Source of the DNA: Treponema sp.
Lineage (GTDB): Bacteria > Spirochaetota > Spirochaetia > Treponematales > Breznakiellaceae
Length of the DNA: 39,281 bases
Assembly (NCBI GenBank): GCA_031288005.1
Contig: JAITSE010000066.1
Span: forward strand, 1 to 39,281
Direction: 5' to 3'
Position 1 is the first letter of the stretch, and each line of letters starts with the position of its first letter. The translations under genes were made by a program, and so were the position numbers. Below are positions 1-39,130 of this stretch, piece after piece. The notes under the pieces are model-generated. The model had not been told where the DNA came from, searched no databases, and saw only the letters and a list, made by a program, of their open reading frames with translations.

Positions 1-81
1 TGCAATTTGCTTTGCAAATTGCTTAGGAGTTTTGGGAGCGGCGTCTAAGTTGCGGATATTGTTGTAAGTCCCAAAACTCCC
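1..81. repeat. 81-bp direct repeat, copy 1
   Basis: Bases 1-81 are identical to 488-568. The unit begins with the hairpin GCAATTTGC-ttt-GCAAATTGC and contains a 12-bp inverted repeat, GGAGTTTTGGGA (28-39) against TCCCAAAACTCC (69-80), enclosing a spacer with no obvious symmetry. The start may be cut by the window edge. Confidence 0.9.
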
Positions 82-157
82 CGGATTGGACCCTAAGGAC
101 CGGCCCTGGGGAGAAGCCCGGAAAACCATTGCGGGGAGTTTTGCGGCCCCTGCAATC

Positions 158-283
158 AGAGAAGTTCTGACTACAGTCAGCGAGGTTCTGACTACAGTCA
201 GAGAAGCTCTGACTATAGTCAGCGAGGTTCTGACTACAGTCAGAGAAGCTCTGACTACAGTCAGCGAGGTTCTGACTACAGTC
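158..283. repeat. 21-bp tandem array, six copies
   Basis: Six contiguous 21-bp units begin at 158, 179, 200, 221, 242 and 263. Odd units start agagaag and even units agcgagg, so the higher-order period is 42 bp. A degenerate seventh unit follows at 284. Each unit holds the small palindrome CTGACT-ac-AGTCAG. Since 21 is divisible by three, all frames stay open across the array, which explains the cysteine/serine-rich open frame on the minus strand; I do not consider that a gene. Confidence 0.9.
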
Positions 284-418
284 GGAAAGGCTCTGATTTA
301 GCCCTAAGAATAAATCCGGGGAGTTTTGCGGCCCCTGCAATCAGGCAAAGCTGAGACCGGAGGTCTCAAGATTGCTTAGGGGTTTTCAAGCAGCCCCCAA
401 GGGCCGCTCTGGTCCAAC

Positions 419-470
419 CCGCAAAACTCCTTAGCAAACCGGCGGAGCCGGTTTGCTTGGAGTTTTGCGG
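419..470. repeat. Compound 52-bp palindrome of the AAAACTCC family
   Basis: The outer arms CCGCAAAACTCC (419-430) and GGAGTTTTGCGG (459-470) are perfect complements. Nested inside are the arms GCAAACCGGC (434-443) and GCCGGTTTGC (447-456) around the loop gga. This is the clearest single example of the general design: a conserved frame, a variable stem and a triplet loop. Confidence 0.85.
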
Positions 471-487
471 ATTGTTGTTGGGTGAAG

Positions 488-568
488 TGCAATTTGCTTT
501 GCAAATTGCTTAGGAGTTTTGGGAGCGGCGTCTAAGTTGCGGATATTGTTGTAAGTCCCAAAACTCCC
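488..568. repeat. 81-bp direct repeat, copy 2
   Basis: Identical to bases 1-81. The flanking sequences differ immediately outside the unit, so the copied segment has sharp ends. Confidence 0.9.
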
Positions 569-888
569 AAGGAACCCGCAGGGTTCGCAAAATTCCATAG
601 TCCTAAGGGCTGATTCCCGTGCAACCGCTTGCGCGGTTGCTTAGGAGTTTTGCGGCTCCCAAGGGGTTTTCAAGCGGCCCCCAGGGGCCGTTCTGGTCCA
701 ACCCGCAAAACTCCAAGCAATCAGGCTCCGCCTGATTGCACGGCTCAGGAATACACGGGAATACGTAGAGACCCGCTACGGGACCGGCGGTCCCACGGTT
801 CTCAAGTGCGGGGAGTTTTGCGGACCGCGGTTCTACGAACCGATGGGTCGCTTTGACCCGCAAAGAAGCTCATACTGGTAAGATGTGT

Positions 889-967
889 CAAAAAACTCCT
901 AAGCAAGCCGCTAAGCAAGCCTACGGCTTGCTTAGGCTTGCTTAGCGGCTTGCTTAGGAGTTTTTTG
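889..967. repeat. 33-bp perfect inverted repeat
   Basis: The left arm 889-921 and the right arm 935-967 are perfectly complementary over 33 bp, with a 13-nt loop. The arms start CAAAAAACTCC and end GGAGTTTTTTG. The loop carries an extra GGCTTGCTTA, as if an inner hairpin arm had been duplicated. A transcript of either strand would end the stem in six U residues, so it could act as a bidirectional terminator. Confidence 0.85.
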
Positions 968-1240
968 CCGCCTAAGAAGTTCACATTCACAAAAGGTTCA
1001 AAAACTCCAGGCGGACCGCAGGTCCGCACGGACTACTGTCCGCAGGGTTCCCAAAACTCCCCGCATTGGTTCTCCGGGCTGGTTTGAGACCCTGCGGGTC
1101 TCACAGGCTTCTTTCCGAGGTCTGACCCCTGCAATTTGCGAAGCAAATTGCAGGGTATCAGAGACCCAAGAAACCGCGATTCTACGAACCGGTGGTTTTC
1201 GGGTCTCTGATACCCTGCGGGTCTCTGAGAACAGCCTCCT

Positions 1241-9539: not shown

Positions 9540-10035
9540 AATAGGGCCGTGAGAAGAAGGCTTGCGGCGGGGTTCTTCATTTACACGCTTGTGCTAAGTT
9601 TTTGAAGTTAAAGGACTTTAGTTTCAAGGAATTTTAATTCCAAGGGACTTGCGGGGTTCCAGACCGCTGGTTTCAGACTGCGTTTAACCTCGATCTTATA
9701 GTAGCGCTGAGCTATAACAACTCTGGTGGCAATTCGCTCAGCGGCTTTATCTGCCCCGCACTGCAATCTGCGAAGCAGATTGCTTAGGAGTTTTGCGGGC
9801 TTTTATGGATATAAAGGACTTTTCTAATTCCGCAAAACTCCCCGCATTGGTTCCCGGGATGGTCCTTCGGGGCTGGTTCTACGGGAATAAATCCGGGGAG
9901 TTTTGGGACCTATAACACAATCCATCGGAAACTTCGTTTCCGCAATTTAGACAGCGCTCCCAAAACTCCTATCGTTGGGAGACGTCTTCAAACGGGCGAA
10001 AACCAGCTTTTCCCCGTTTGCCTGAAAGCCCGCAA
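9540..10035. repeat. Intergenic hairpin-repeat tract
   Basis: No gene is seen. Elements of the AAAACTCC family recur: GCAATCTGC-gaa-GCAGATTGC (9763-9783) followed by TTAGGAGTTTTGCGG, CGGAAAC-ttc-GTTTCCG (9926-9942), GGAATT-tt-AATTCC (9628-9641), and paired GGAGTTTTGGGA / TCCCAAAACTCC around 9896-9967. Confidence 0.75.
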
Positions 10036-18396: not shown

Positions 18397-19144
18397 AATT
18401 TACCGTACCTCTCATATAAAATTTTAAATAACGATAACATTTTGCCGCTCCTTCGTCAATTACGCGCTTCTCCCCGGACTTATTCTCCGTGCAACCGTGG
18501 GACTTGAGGTCACACGGTTGCCTTGGAGTTTTGAAACCGCTCTGAGACCGGAGGTTTCCGGTCTCAGAGCGGTTTCAAAACTCCCCGTACTGGTTCCACG
18601 GGCTTATTCTACGGACTTGTTCTTCCATTGATTTGAAGAAGTCTTGCAATCCGGCGGAGCTGAGACCGGAGGTCTCAGCTTGCATTGGTTCGCCGGACTG
18701 ATTCCCGGAGGAGAAGCCCGAAGAACCAGCCACAGGGGACAGACATCGGGGAACGGCGGGGAGGGACAGACACCTCGGAGACTGGTCCGGGGAAGCAGCC
18801 CGGAGGGACAGACCCGGGGGAAAAAGCCCGGAGACTAGTCCGGGGAATAATGCGGGGAGTTTTGGAACTTTCGACTGCCCCCGCGGCCAAGGGCCGCTTG
18901 CGGATTGCAGGTCTCCTGGCATATACTCTTTTTGATATTGGACTTGGCGAACCTTTGGTTCGACAACAACCTATTATACTGAACCCTGCCAACCTTCGGC
19001 TGGCTGTCGGGTTCGGGTTGCGGAAACGCGGAAACAAGTTTCCGACGAACAAATCTATTTTCAGCGGCGGAATATCCCCGGTTCGGAGGAATAATGCCGC
19101 GGCGGTCGTCCAGTTACCCGCCTAACCAAACACAAGGAGCTTAT
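18397..19144. repeat. Intergenic repeat tract with hairpins
   Basis: No supported gene. It holds the long hairpin at 18525-18584, the hairpin AGCTGAGACC-gga-GGTCTCAGCT (18658-18680), GCGGCC-aag-GGCCGC near 18886-18900, CGAACC-ttt-GGTTCG near 18949-18963, and a half-copy of the gcggaaacaa hairpin near 19020-19052. Between 18690 and 18850 a degenerate purine-rich repeat alternates GGGACAGAC and CCGGGGAA blocks. Confidence 0.7.
18525..18584. repeat. 28-bp perfect inverted repeat
   Basis: The left arm 18525-18552 begins GGAGTTTTGAAACCG and the right arm 18557-18584 ends CAAAACTCC. All 28 positions pair, around the loop ggtt. It is a compound AAAACTCC-family element with the GAGACCGGA stem nested inside. 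Confidence 0.85.
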
Positions 19145-19904: not shown

Positions 19905-20038
19905 GCAACCCGCAAAGCGGGTTGCTTAGGAGTTTTGAGACCTCCGGTCTCTTGAATCCTTTGTGACTGTGAACTCTTCGGGGTCAAAACTCCAAGGGAA
20001 CCATCGGTTCTACGAACCGATGGTTCCCAAAACTCCAG
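19905..20038. repeat. Two hairpin elements between yhhQ and tcdA
   Basis: GCAACCCGC-aaa-GCGGGTTGC (19905-19925) is followed by TTAGGAGTTTTG. A 15-bp hairpin GGGAACCATCGGTTC-tac (19996-20028, perfect arms) sits between CAAAACTCC copies. GAGACC-tcc-GGTCTC lies between the two. Either large stem could attenuate read-through from yhhQ to tcdA. Confidence 0.8.
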
Positions 20039-26884: not shown

Positions 26885-26912
26885 TTGTTCGATAAGTGAA
26901 GTTATCGAACAA
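26885..26912. repeat. 11-bp inverted repeat upstream of the XRE-cupin gene
   Basis: TTGTTCGATAA (26885-26895), loop gtgaag, TTATCGAACAA (26902-26912). It shares the outer TTGTTCG/CGAACAA ends with the 15071-15110 hairpin. It lies about 70 bases before the start codon of the regulator gene, so it could be an operator or simply another dispersed hairpin. Confidence 0.6.
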
Positions 26913-30609: not shown

Positions 30610-30637
30610 CAATCAGGCAAGCCTGATTGCCAAGGAG
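30610..30637 (+). promoter_or_regulatory. Repeat hairpin fused to a Shine-Dalgarno sequence
   Basis: CAATCAGGC-aa-GCCTGATTG (30610-30629) is followed by ccAAGGAG (30632-30637), five bases before the ATG at 30643. This is the layout of the dispersed element (hairpin, then TTAGGAGTTTT), so the gene's ribosome binding site appears to come from the repeat. Confidence 0.6.
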
Positions 30638-30642
30638 TTGTT

Positions 30643-31236
30643 ATGATGATGGAAAAGAAAAAATTGTTGGCTGCGGGAGCGGTCGCGGTCCTGCTCGCGC
30701 TGGCTCTGGCAGGATGCCCCAATGACACAAGCGAAAGCGAAGAAGAGGACACATGGTCAAAAATAACAGGACTGAGCCAGGTGAATGGAAAATGGAAAGG
30801 CTCTTACAGCCAAACGCAGAGCGCATTAGAAACGTTTAAAGAAATGTATATAGATCTGAATGGAAGAAATAATATGCCTGCATTTACGGCTACAGCGCTT
30901 GAGAATGTAAAGATAAACTACAACACGGACATAACAATGTCTATCGATGCGGAGGCCCAAAAAACGGCACAGACCGGGACTATGAAGATAACTATTTCCG
31001 CTGATAACGACGCCTCCATGAGTACTGCATGGATAAATTTGACATCTCTGTATTATAGTGTCGGGACTGCGGATAGCAAAGAGCATTCCATAACTATCCC
31101 TATAGATGAGCCCGAGACATCGATAAATGAGGCTGATTTTGCGGAGATGCTGAGCGCGGAAATAAATCAGCATGGAACAAAGATAAAAATTCCAGCGACA
31201 GCCAACAACCCGGAATTCCTGCTTATCAAACAATAG
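30643..31236 (+). CDS. Lipoprotein of unknown function
   Basis: The 197-residue product has a short Lys-rich n-region, a strongly hydrophobic core (AAGAVAVLLALALAGC) and a lipobox LAGC with Cys about residue 25. An acidic linker (NDTSESEEEDTWSK) precedes the mature domain. The mature part alternates polar beta-like strands (KGSYSQTQ, MKITISADND, EHSITIPIDEP) and ends with an isoleucine-rich strand; no family is recognised. The start is supported by AAGGAG; two further ATGs follow immediately (30646, 30649), so the exact start may vary. A strong intrinsic terminator follows, so it is monocistronic. Confidence 0.8.
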   Translation: MMMEKKKLLAAGAVAVLLALALAGCPNDTSESEEEDTWSKITGLSQVNGKWKGSYSQTQSALETFKEMYIDLNGRNNMPAFTATALENVKINYNTDITMSIDAEAQKTAQTGTMKITISADNDASMSTAWINLTSLYYSVGTADSKEHSITIPIDEPETSINEADFAEMLSAEINQHGTKIKIPATANNPEFLLIKQ

Positions 31237-38646: not shown

Positions 38647-38674
38647 TTCTTTCAAAACTTCAGTTTTGAAAGAA
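38647..38674. repeat. 13-bp AT-rich hairpin after cysK
   Basis: TTCTTTCAAAACT (38647-38659), loop tc, AGTTTTGAAAGAA (38662-38674). It follows the cysK stop by 30 bases and may stabilise the 3' end. There is no U-tract, so termination is uncertain. Confidence 0.6.
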
Positions 38675-38701
38675 GAACCGTAACTATTCAGCCGGGCGCA
38701 T

Positions 38702-38984
38702 GGCTTGCCGCTGTGCGGTTGCGCCGGCGGCGCAACACACACGCGGTAGGACGCCGCGGGGGGCGTTACGGGGGGCGTTGCCCCCCGTAGAGGGGACAAG
38801 CCGCAAAGCGGCTTGCCGCTGTCAGGAGCGCCGGTGGCGCTCCTAGACACGCGGTAGGAGGTTGCGGGGTTTTAGGACAAGCCGCGAAGCGGCTTGCCGC
38901 TGTGCGGTTGCGCCGGTGGCGCAACACACACGCGGTAGGACGCCGCGGGGGGCGTTACGGGGGGCGTTGCCCCCCGTAGAGGGG
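38702..38984. repeat. Second modular hairpin repeat family
   Basis: Bases 38702-38795 and 38891-38984 match over 94 bp with a single difference (38728 C, 38917 T). A shorter, altered unit (38810-38880) lies between. Each unit has the frame GGCTTGCCGCTGT...ACGCGGTAGG around a hairpin: GTTGCGCC-ggc/ggt-GGCGCAAC in the outer units but AGGAGCGCC-ggt-GGCGCTCCT in the middle one. Linkers are CAAGCCGC-aaa/gaa-GCGGCTTG, and GGGGGGC-gtt-GCCCCCC is also present. All loops are triplets, as in the first family. Confidence 0.85.
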
Positions 38985-39012: not shown

Positions 39013-39130
39013 AGATCGGAAGGGCGTCGTGTAGGGAACGAGGGTTGAGGTGGGGGGGGGTGGGGGGGGGGGCCAAACACCCCGGGGGGGGGCGGGGGGG
39101 GGGGGGGTTGGGGGGGGGGTCCCCCCCCCT
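39013..39130. other. Illumina adapter read-through and poly-G artefact
   Basis: From 39013 the sequence AGATCGGAAGGGCGTCGTGT, then AGGGAACGAG, matches the TruSeq universal adapter apart from a few substitutions. It then decays into long G runs typical of two-colour chemistry, up to about 39120-39130. The translated strings LHDALPIS and PYTTPFRS are well-known adapter-derived peptides. This stretch is not biological. Confidence 0.95.

Follow-up and report, generated by a model that had tools for sequence, protein, structure and literature searches.

Gene spacers in a 39,281-nt stretch of treponeme DNA (hereafter the window, meaning the whole stretch analysed) are dense in short perfect hairpins. 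The spacers separate ordinary genes and carry dispersed compound palindromes, non-coding and REP-like, that form a family in treponeme intergenic DNA. Sequence comparison among copies and genomes establishes dispersal, covariation of the stems, inversion of the loops and residence at the same place in related species. Co-change of the two arms is attributed, with a probability of roughly 60%, mainly to polymerase template switching between them, the agent itself being inferred.

A preliminary description of the window had guessed a Treponema, and the window YidC fits: proteins under the names Treponema sp. or Spirochaetaceae share 80–83% identity with it. The carrier treponemes probably live in termite guts, to judge by the names of relatives. 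For stems of at least 7 bp and loops of 3–8 nt, the window gave 63 rows, 6 of which are overlapping readings of a single poly-G tract, against 10–17 rows in 5 Markov resamples. Intergenic DNA was defined by a hand-picked list of 27 ORFs and amounts to 8,382 nt. With loops of 3–5 nt, it holds 25 hairpins with stems of at least 8 bp (mean 0.525 and maximum 3 in 200 resamples), including 8 at 38,647–38,978 near the contig end that are unrelated to the family. Perfect hairpins with stems of at least 9 bp number 15 there, 4 of them in the same unrelated stretch, against 0.08 expected (maximum 1, 200 resamples), which is beyond chance complementarity. Across the window, 15 of 16 stems of at least 9 bp are intergenic.

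Many of the hairpins belong to a two-part element (Table 1). In its full form, a short hairpin is joined, usually across 2–4 bases, to a core unit whose inverted ends are GGAGTTTT...AAAACTCC. The hairpin mostly has a stem of 8–20 bp and usually a 3-nt loop, and the bases that follow it are TTA in the window and TGG in some relatives. Core units of the window span 52–111 nt, whereas those of relatives measure about 63 nt. Their outer stem reaches inward with letters that are lineage-specific but paired (GCGGC/GCCGC, GGGGC/GCCCC, GCGCC/GGCGC and GTCCC/GGGAC). When a covariance model built from 15 core units of relatives is run on the window, nine places score E <0.01 and a tenth scores 0.019. 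The preliminary description had treated the hairpin as the element, which is only half of it, and had overlooked the adjoining GGAGTTTT...AAAACTCC stretch as a unit.

All seven hairpins listed earlier are perfect inverted repeats in the window, although two extents needed correction: 434–456 grows by one base on each side (433–457, 11-bp stem), and 1131–1151 is part of a 13-bp stem at 1127–1155. Two copies in the same frame, 489–509 and 621–640, had been missed. The flanking block TTAGGAGTTTTG, described as shared, is exact at 2, 489, 621, 9763 and 19905 but inexact or missing at the other copies. Hairpin 433–457 is preceded by AAAACTCCTT and followed by TGGAGTTTTG, 717–739 is preceded by AAAACTCCAA, 30610–30629 has CCAAGGAGTT downstream, and 1127–1155 has no such flanking block. 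A second set of stems with GAGACC/GGTCTC is present as described, at 352–368, 1085–1103 and 18658–18680 and within 18525–18584. The compound elements at 1–81 and 488–568 agree over 81 nt without a single difference, and the core unit at 18525–18584 forms a single uninterrupted palindrome, its 28-bp stem fully paired around a 4-nt loop.

Table 1. Hairpins, core units and compound elements along the window
Positions	Strand	Feature	E value of core unit
1–81	+	First of two compound elements identical over 81 nt: hairpin GCAATTTGC-ttt-GCAAATTGC (2–22), TTA, core unit GGAGTTTT...AAAACTCC (26–80)	3.8e-6
320–430	.	Long core unit GGAGTTTTGCGG...CCGCAAAACTCC with internal hairpin TGAGACC-gga-GGTCTCA (352–368)	1.6e-5
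433–457	.	Hairpin AGCAAACCGGC-gga-GCCGGTTTGCT; left flank AAAACTCC, right flank GGAGTTTT	
488–568	+	Compound element, second identical 81-nt copy: hairpin 489–509, core unit 513–567	
621–714	+	Compound element: hairpin GCAACCGC-ttgc-GCGGTTGC (621–640), TTA, core unit 644–714	1.5e-6
717–739	-	Hairpin GCAATCAGGC-tcc-GCCTGATTGC adjoining AAAACTCC	
812–899	.	Marginal core-unit-like stretch	0.019
911–935	.	11-bp hairpin CTAAGCAAGCC-tac-GGCTTGCTTAG nested in a longer palindrome out to AAAACTCC (892) and GGAGTTTT (957)	
957–1008	.	Core unit	0.0018
1085–1103	.	Hairpin TGAGACCC-tgc-GGGTCTCA	
1127–1155	.	Hairpin CCCTGCAATTTGC-gaa-GCAAATTGCAGGG without adjoining core unit	
9763–9841	+	Compound element: hairpin GCAATCTGC-gaa-GCAGATTGC (9763–9783), TTA, core unit 9787–9841	7.5e-7
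9897–9969	.	Core unit GGAGTTTTGGGA...TCCCAAAACTCC	2.3e-5
18491–18584	+	Compound element: hairpin of 13 bp, one pair mismatched, GCAACCGTGGGAC-ttgag-GTCACACGGTTGC (18491–18521), then core unit 18525–18584	2.3e-5
18658–18680	.	Hairpin AGCTGAGACC-gga-GGTCTCAGCT	
19905–19993	+	Compound element: hairpin GCAACCCGC-aaa-GCGGGTTGC (19905–19925), TTA, core unit 19929–19993	5.9e-4
19996–20028	-	15-bp hairpin GGGAACCATCGGTTC-tac-GAACCGATGGTTCCC with a AAAACTCC block on either side	
30610–30629	.	Hairpin CAATCAGG-caag-CCTGATTG, then AAGGAG (likely ribosome-binding site) and an ORF at 30643	

The window also holds repeats of other kinds. A tandem array with a 21/42-nt period (units TCAGAGAAGCTCTGACTACAG and TCAGCGAGGTTCTGACTACAG) occupies 156–296, flanked by GGAGTTTT blocks at 135 and 320. 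A second type of hairpin, in which the tip AAC-TGAA/TTCA-GTT is constant while the outer stem varies, lies at 38647–38674 and, less exactly, at 26885–26912, and also occurs at loci of G123, G031 and T. primitia; a third type, with the tip AACC-CGGTT-GGTT, occurs in G075 and G089. Hairpins CAAGCCGC-aaa/gaa-GCGGCTTG, GTTGCGCC-ggc/ggt-GGCGCAAC and TACGGGGGGC-gtt-GCCCCCCGTA recur at 81- and 189-nt offsets within 38718–38978, and a TACGGGGGC hairpin in G123 is similar to them. The contig end, 39013–39281, looks like an assembly artefact: 39013–39045 match an Illumina adapter at 30 of 33 positions, and poly-G runs follow. Three GGGACAGA repeats start at 18736, 18763 and 18805, and similar GGGGACAGA tracts adjoin Y1 transposase genes in G123 and G178 and resemble the GGGGWSAS motif given for TIRYT ends in excerpts of PMC3733652.

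The core-unit model was searched against related genomes with 28 candidates scored per genome, and at E ≤0.001 it matched at least 37 of 185 genomes of the same family, some of the matches in other genomes being palindromes shorter than 30 nt without an interior. With each place counted once, there are at least 28 places in G075, 25 in G178, 12 in G073 and 11 in G074. An exact-end pattern occurs in 49 of 190 genomes, against about 27 for a reversed-pattern control, so single exact-end matches mean little. Ten genomes have at least three matches (G075 53, G123 21, G178 21); the control never rose above two. The genomes that we assume to be Treponema primitia and T. azotonutricia have one exact-end match and none, respectively. 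Of 394 genomes across the class, 30 contain a narrower pattern, most of them a single time, and its reversed control matched in about 13; the matches in G446 (5), G549 (2) and G401 (7) look real, with differing interiors. In these three other Spirochaetia, the GGAGTTTT...AAAACTCC units are 57–70 nt long, their interiors look unrelated to those of the window, and the outer stems of G446 and G549 also differ by compensated changes. The exact frame TTGCTTAGGAGTTTTG was found in 39 stretches of viral contigs and GCAA-gap-TTGCTTAGGAGTTTT in 65 stretches of genome contigs, most of the latter from unrelated groups and looking like chance; three of the 65 (L043, L091 and L104) led to whole genomes, two of Treponema sp. 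and one of Spirochaetia. Phage and plasmid records gave no match. Some stretches of G075, G123, G178, G031 and G074 in a density census had been picked for carrying the motif, and those densities were left unused.

Among loci assigned to a genome set, 392 GGAGTTT[TC] sites were surveyed (many in genes), and 86 have an adjacent hairpin, against 24 of 2,985 random positions. Arms and loops were counted in 83 rows, three of the 86 (an overlap set) being dropped; they have 65 distinct left arms, 66 are perfect and 63 have a 3-nt loop. The 11 window rows in this survey represent 9 hairpins, two of them read from both sides. TTGAC (−35-like) just outside the hairpin was considered as a general feature and rejected, because, although present at 5 of 15 hairpins in G073/G074, it recurs at 1 of the 21 from G075 and at none of 47 others.

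Stems of the family covary. The earlier claim that inner stems vary yet stay paired is borne out by two-sided changes both in alignments and between orthologues. One alignment (A3) comprises 17 oriented 14-bp hairpins from G073, G074 and G075 (17 of 18 rows), and a second (A2) comprises 15 core units. Rows of both are partly orthologues or close copies, so that counts are not independent events: A3 has two-sided changes at 10 of 14 pairs, and its two-sided cells number 23, compared with 4.3 after shuffling (none of 500 shuffles reaches 23) and at most 5 in slid versions, and A2 has 12 such cells, against 2.9 in shuffles and at most 4 when slid. One-sided standard changes number 0 in each alignment, and unpaired cells 9 of 238 in A3 and 5 of 195 in A2. 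Pairing holds in 96.2% of A3 cells, against 86.4% in shuffles, and falls to at most 48% when the partner is slid by one base. Further pair types are not above shuffles, 343 of 500 reaching the A3 count and 84 of 500 the A2 count.

Comparison of genomes places elements at the same position in related species. An orthologous interval was found for 11 of 33 G073 hairpins, two of the 11 with core-unit context. Six orthologous hairpins chosen by hand give 84 pairs (pair D counted over the common 13 positions), of which 66 are the same, 11 have changed in both arms and still pair, and 7 differ otherwise; thus 11 of 18 changed pairs are two-sided. Independent change would be expected to give about 0.2 plus 0.2 double changes by our own arithmetic. 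Around the five hairpins compared between G073 and G074, flanking DNA is 93–97% identical, apart from an additional piece at 88%; for the G073/G075 pair the figure is about 87%. A seventh pair, G075 L221/G074 L272, was identified by collinearity and stands outside the six-hairpin count; its stems are identical and its loops differ.

Loops occur in both orientations. The first loop of 21 G123 units is AAA in 11, TTT in 9 and TAT in 1. In 13 G123 units with a 9-nt linker (12 share the linker), whose sequences otherwise nearly agree, it is TTT in 7, AAA in 5 and TAT in 1, or 4, 5 and 1 without three TTT units at contig starts that could be assembly duplicates; the second loop of the same 13 does not track the first (GTT 9, GCT 3, AAC 1). 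At orthologous hairpin B, with both genomes read in one orientation, the loop is TTC in G073 but GAA in G074, and the G192 stem GCTCAAAATC is found with each of these two loops twice. In G073, one arm seems to have been copied anew with the loop displaced (GCGAATGCGAAGCGGAG-taaag-...); the G074 counterpart reads GCGAGAGCGAAAC-tcc.

The preliminary description had left the choice between selection for the fold and a copying process by which one arm is rebuilt from its partner. This was the right question, and loop inversion, compensated changes and the lack of G-U-type intermediates favour copying. In the proposed mechanism, DNA polymerase would occasionally switch template between the two arms during replication, and a change in one arm would then be erased or copied into the other. 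The switch would sometimes invert the 3-nt loop, and the resulting stems would differ among copies yet stay nearly perfectly paired. Excerpts of PMC8604942 attribute arm homogenisation and spacer inversion to template switching between arms, and report spacer inversion only on arms longer than 9 bp.

Copying is preferred over selection for an RNA fold because arm homogenisation together with loop inversion is the published fingerprint of template switching. Inverting a loop by point mutation needs three changes with intermediates, and fold selection does not predict inversion. The apparently fresh re-copying of one arm with a shifted loop argues the same way, as does a rate of double changes that is very high for the divergence (~5%). 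Selection for RNA structure, as a terminator, mRNA end protection or a processing hairpin, would suit strong covariation and intergenic hairpins, one of which starts 11 bases past an ORF end (19905). However, a wobble path is lacking: no varied pair in A2 or A3 has a G-U-type one-sided change, and among 80 distinct hairpins (1,008 pairs, oriented strand) G-T mismatches are no commoner than A-C (5 and 6, with 9 of other classes). Downstream of the window hairpins of this frame comes TTAGGAG, and TTTT does not appear until seven bases further on, and the window has 0 Rfam matches at gathering score. An RNA function is therefore judged quite improbable as the source of the covariation.

Template switching would not be the whole account. 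Loops are far more variable than arms (per-site variability 0.65 and 0.11, about sixfold, in ten 14-bp G075 copies), whereas pure switching predicts similar rates, so either the stems are constrained or the loops are extra mutable. The fixed end letters, GC at the stem base and GCAA in the window, also suggest constraint. Some constraint on the stems likely remains, and spread to new places lies outside what arm copying explains.

The low variability of arms relative to loops also fits selection for a folded DNA hairpin recognised by a protein, for example a HUH/Y1 transposase as in REP/RAYT, with only paired copies mobilised or functional. Elements at the same place in related species count for it as well, 15 of the 20 genomes searched contain Y1 transposase domains, and excerpts of PMC3733652 describe REPs as small, intergenic, multi-copy palindromes with alternative complementary stems. 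One G178 palindrome is headed by the REP tag GTAG (GTAGTTTTGC-gcc-GCAAAACTAC), and at one G089 Y1 locus a variant palindrome, GGAGTTTGCC-tgt-GGCAAACTCC, lies about 0.6 kb from the domain. Yet an inverted GGAGTTTT pair was present at 0 of 12 Y1 loci tested from about 50 Y1 matches (flanks up to 1.5 kb), and ten Y1 stretches inspected by eye had none, bar a GGAGTTTG variant in G089. On neither strand does any of the 25 window hairpins have GTAG, GTGG or CGTC within 2 nt of its base. Model-positive G088 (at least 5 places) and G100 (at least 4), for which genome completeness is not given, have no Y1 match. Protein recognition does not by itself yield loop inversion, and we consider it a possible but unlikely basis for the covariation. 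TIRYT-type GGGGWSAS ends (motif from excerpts of PMC3733652), a candidate partner of the Y1 proteins, have scattered matches at 7 of the 12 Y1 loci. Y1 transposase-like genes are multi-copy in G178 and G089 (L204, L253–L257; 11 and 12 matches), and the sequences upstream and downstream look alike among the copies.

Loop flipping and stem renewal could instead be the element's own replication cycle and not a replication error. A dedicated agent would open hairpins and re-copy one arm, as in rolling-hairpin replication, keeping the elements perfect and spreading them; to this we give little credence. Loss of the hairpin nuclease SbcD was considered as a general cause of abundance and rejected. 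A search of 14 genomes matched SbcD in 11 (10 above the cut-off), among them G075, G074 and G123, whose many elements such a loss therefore does not explain. The three misses (G073, G178 and G048) are all carriers, drafts of unstated completeness, and for these a loss of SbcD may contribute.

A variable stem might also be copied from host DNA at the insertion site on landing. At one site, G074 has no element and keeps GCCAAATACGAAGC, and the left arm of the G073 hairpin there is GCCAACTACGAGGC. G075 also has the element at that site, which makes loss from G074 with one arm left the simplest history, and this third genome refutes target templating at the only informative site. At a second candidate site, neither G074 nor G075 contains the complete sequence of the arm. 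From the three genomes compared, the first site points to old residence followed by deletion, not target templating, which is scarcely credible as a general source of the stems. Integron attC recombination sites pair end to end around variable inner stems, and the ~63-nt units of relatives likewise pair in an outer stem around a middle that lacks consensus pairing. However, attC ends are RYYYAAC/GTTRRRY whereas the core-unit ends are fixed as GGAGTTTT/AAAACTCC, and no integron genes were found among 19 window proteins scanned; an attC identity is very improbable.

Covarying stems are normally taken as evidence of selection for a fold. Here, with loop inversion alongside and no G·U intermediates, covariation looks like an instance from nature of structural selection being mimicked by a mutational process, which calls for caution when intergenic DNA of bacteria is tested for covariation. 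The family, which is common to many treponeme genomes, also provides naturally occurring copies on which template switching between arms can be measured. The preliminary description knew no named element of this design, and the open-access literature searched gave none; subscription papers were mostly outside that search. The family is nevertheless REP-like, and copying between arms is already in print as a mechanism.

REPs of the GTAG and CGTC families, associated with RAYT or TIRYT, are likewise small intergenic multi-copy palindromes with short loops, and within a family they have alternative complementary stem letters, inverted dimers and clustering with other repeats (excerpts of PMC3733652, PMC3686654 and PMC8266576). 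In contrast, the window hairpins lack the tag at their bases, the constant block is GGAGTTTT, itself half of an inverted pair that is missing from the 12 Y1 loci of relatives, and the element joins one hairpin to one longer core unit and not two like units. Because window members are without the tag and no transposase link was found at the 12 Y1 loci tested, the family is not filed as REP. Mitochondrial palindromes, namely the Allomyces double-hairpin elements and Fusarium palindromes (excerpts of PMC7218506) and those of Volvox (PMC2670323), belong to organelle genomes and are likened here by description, not by sequence. They are also dispersed intergenic hairpins, optional between related genomes and thought to be mobile or selfish. 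With template-switching inverted repeats the family shares both signatures, arms that change together and 3-nt loops that invert. The cases of PMC8604942 and PMC7202029 come from yeast coding sequence and E. coli, respectively, whereas here the signatures occur in a dispersed family of uncultured bacteria.
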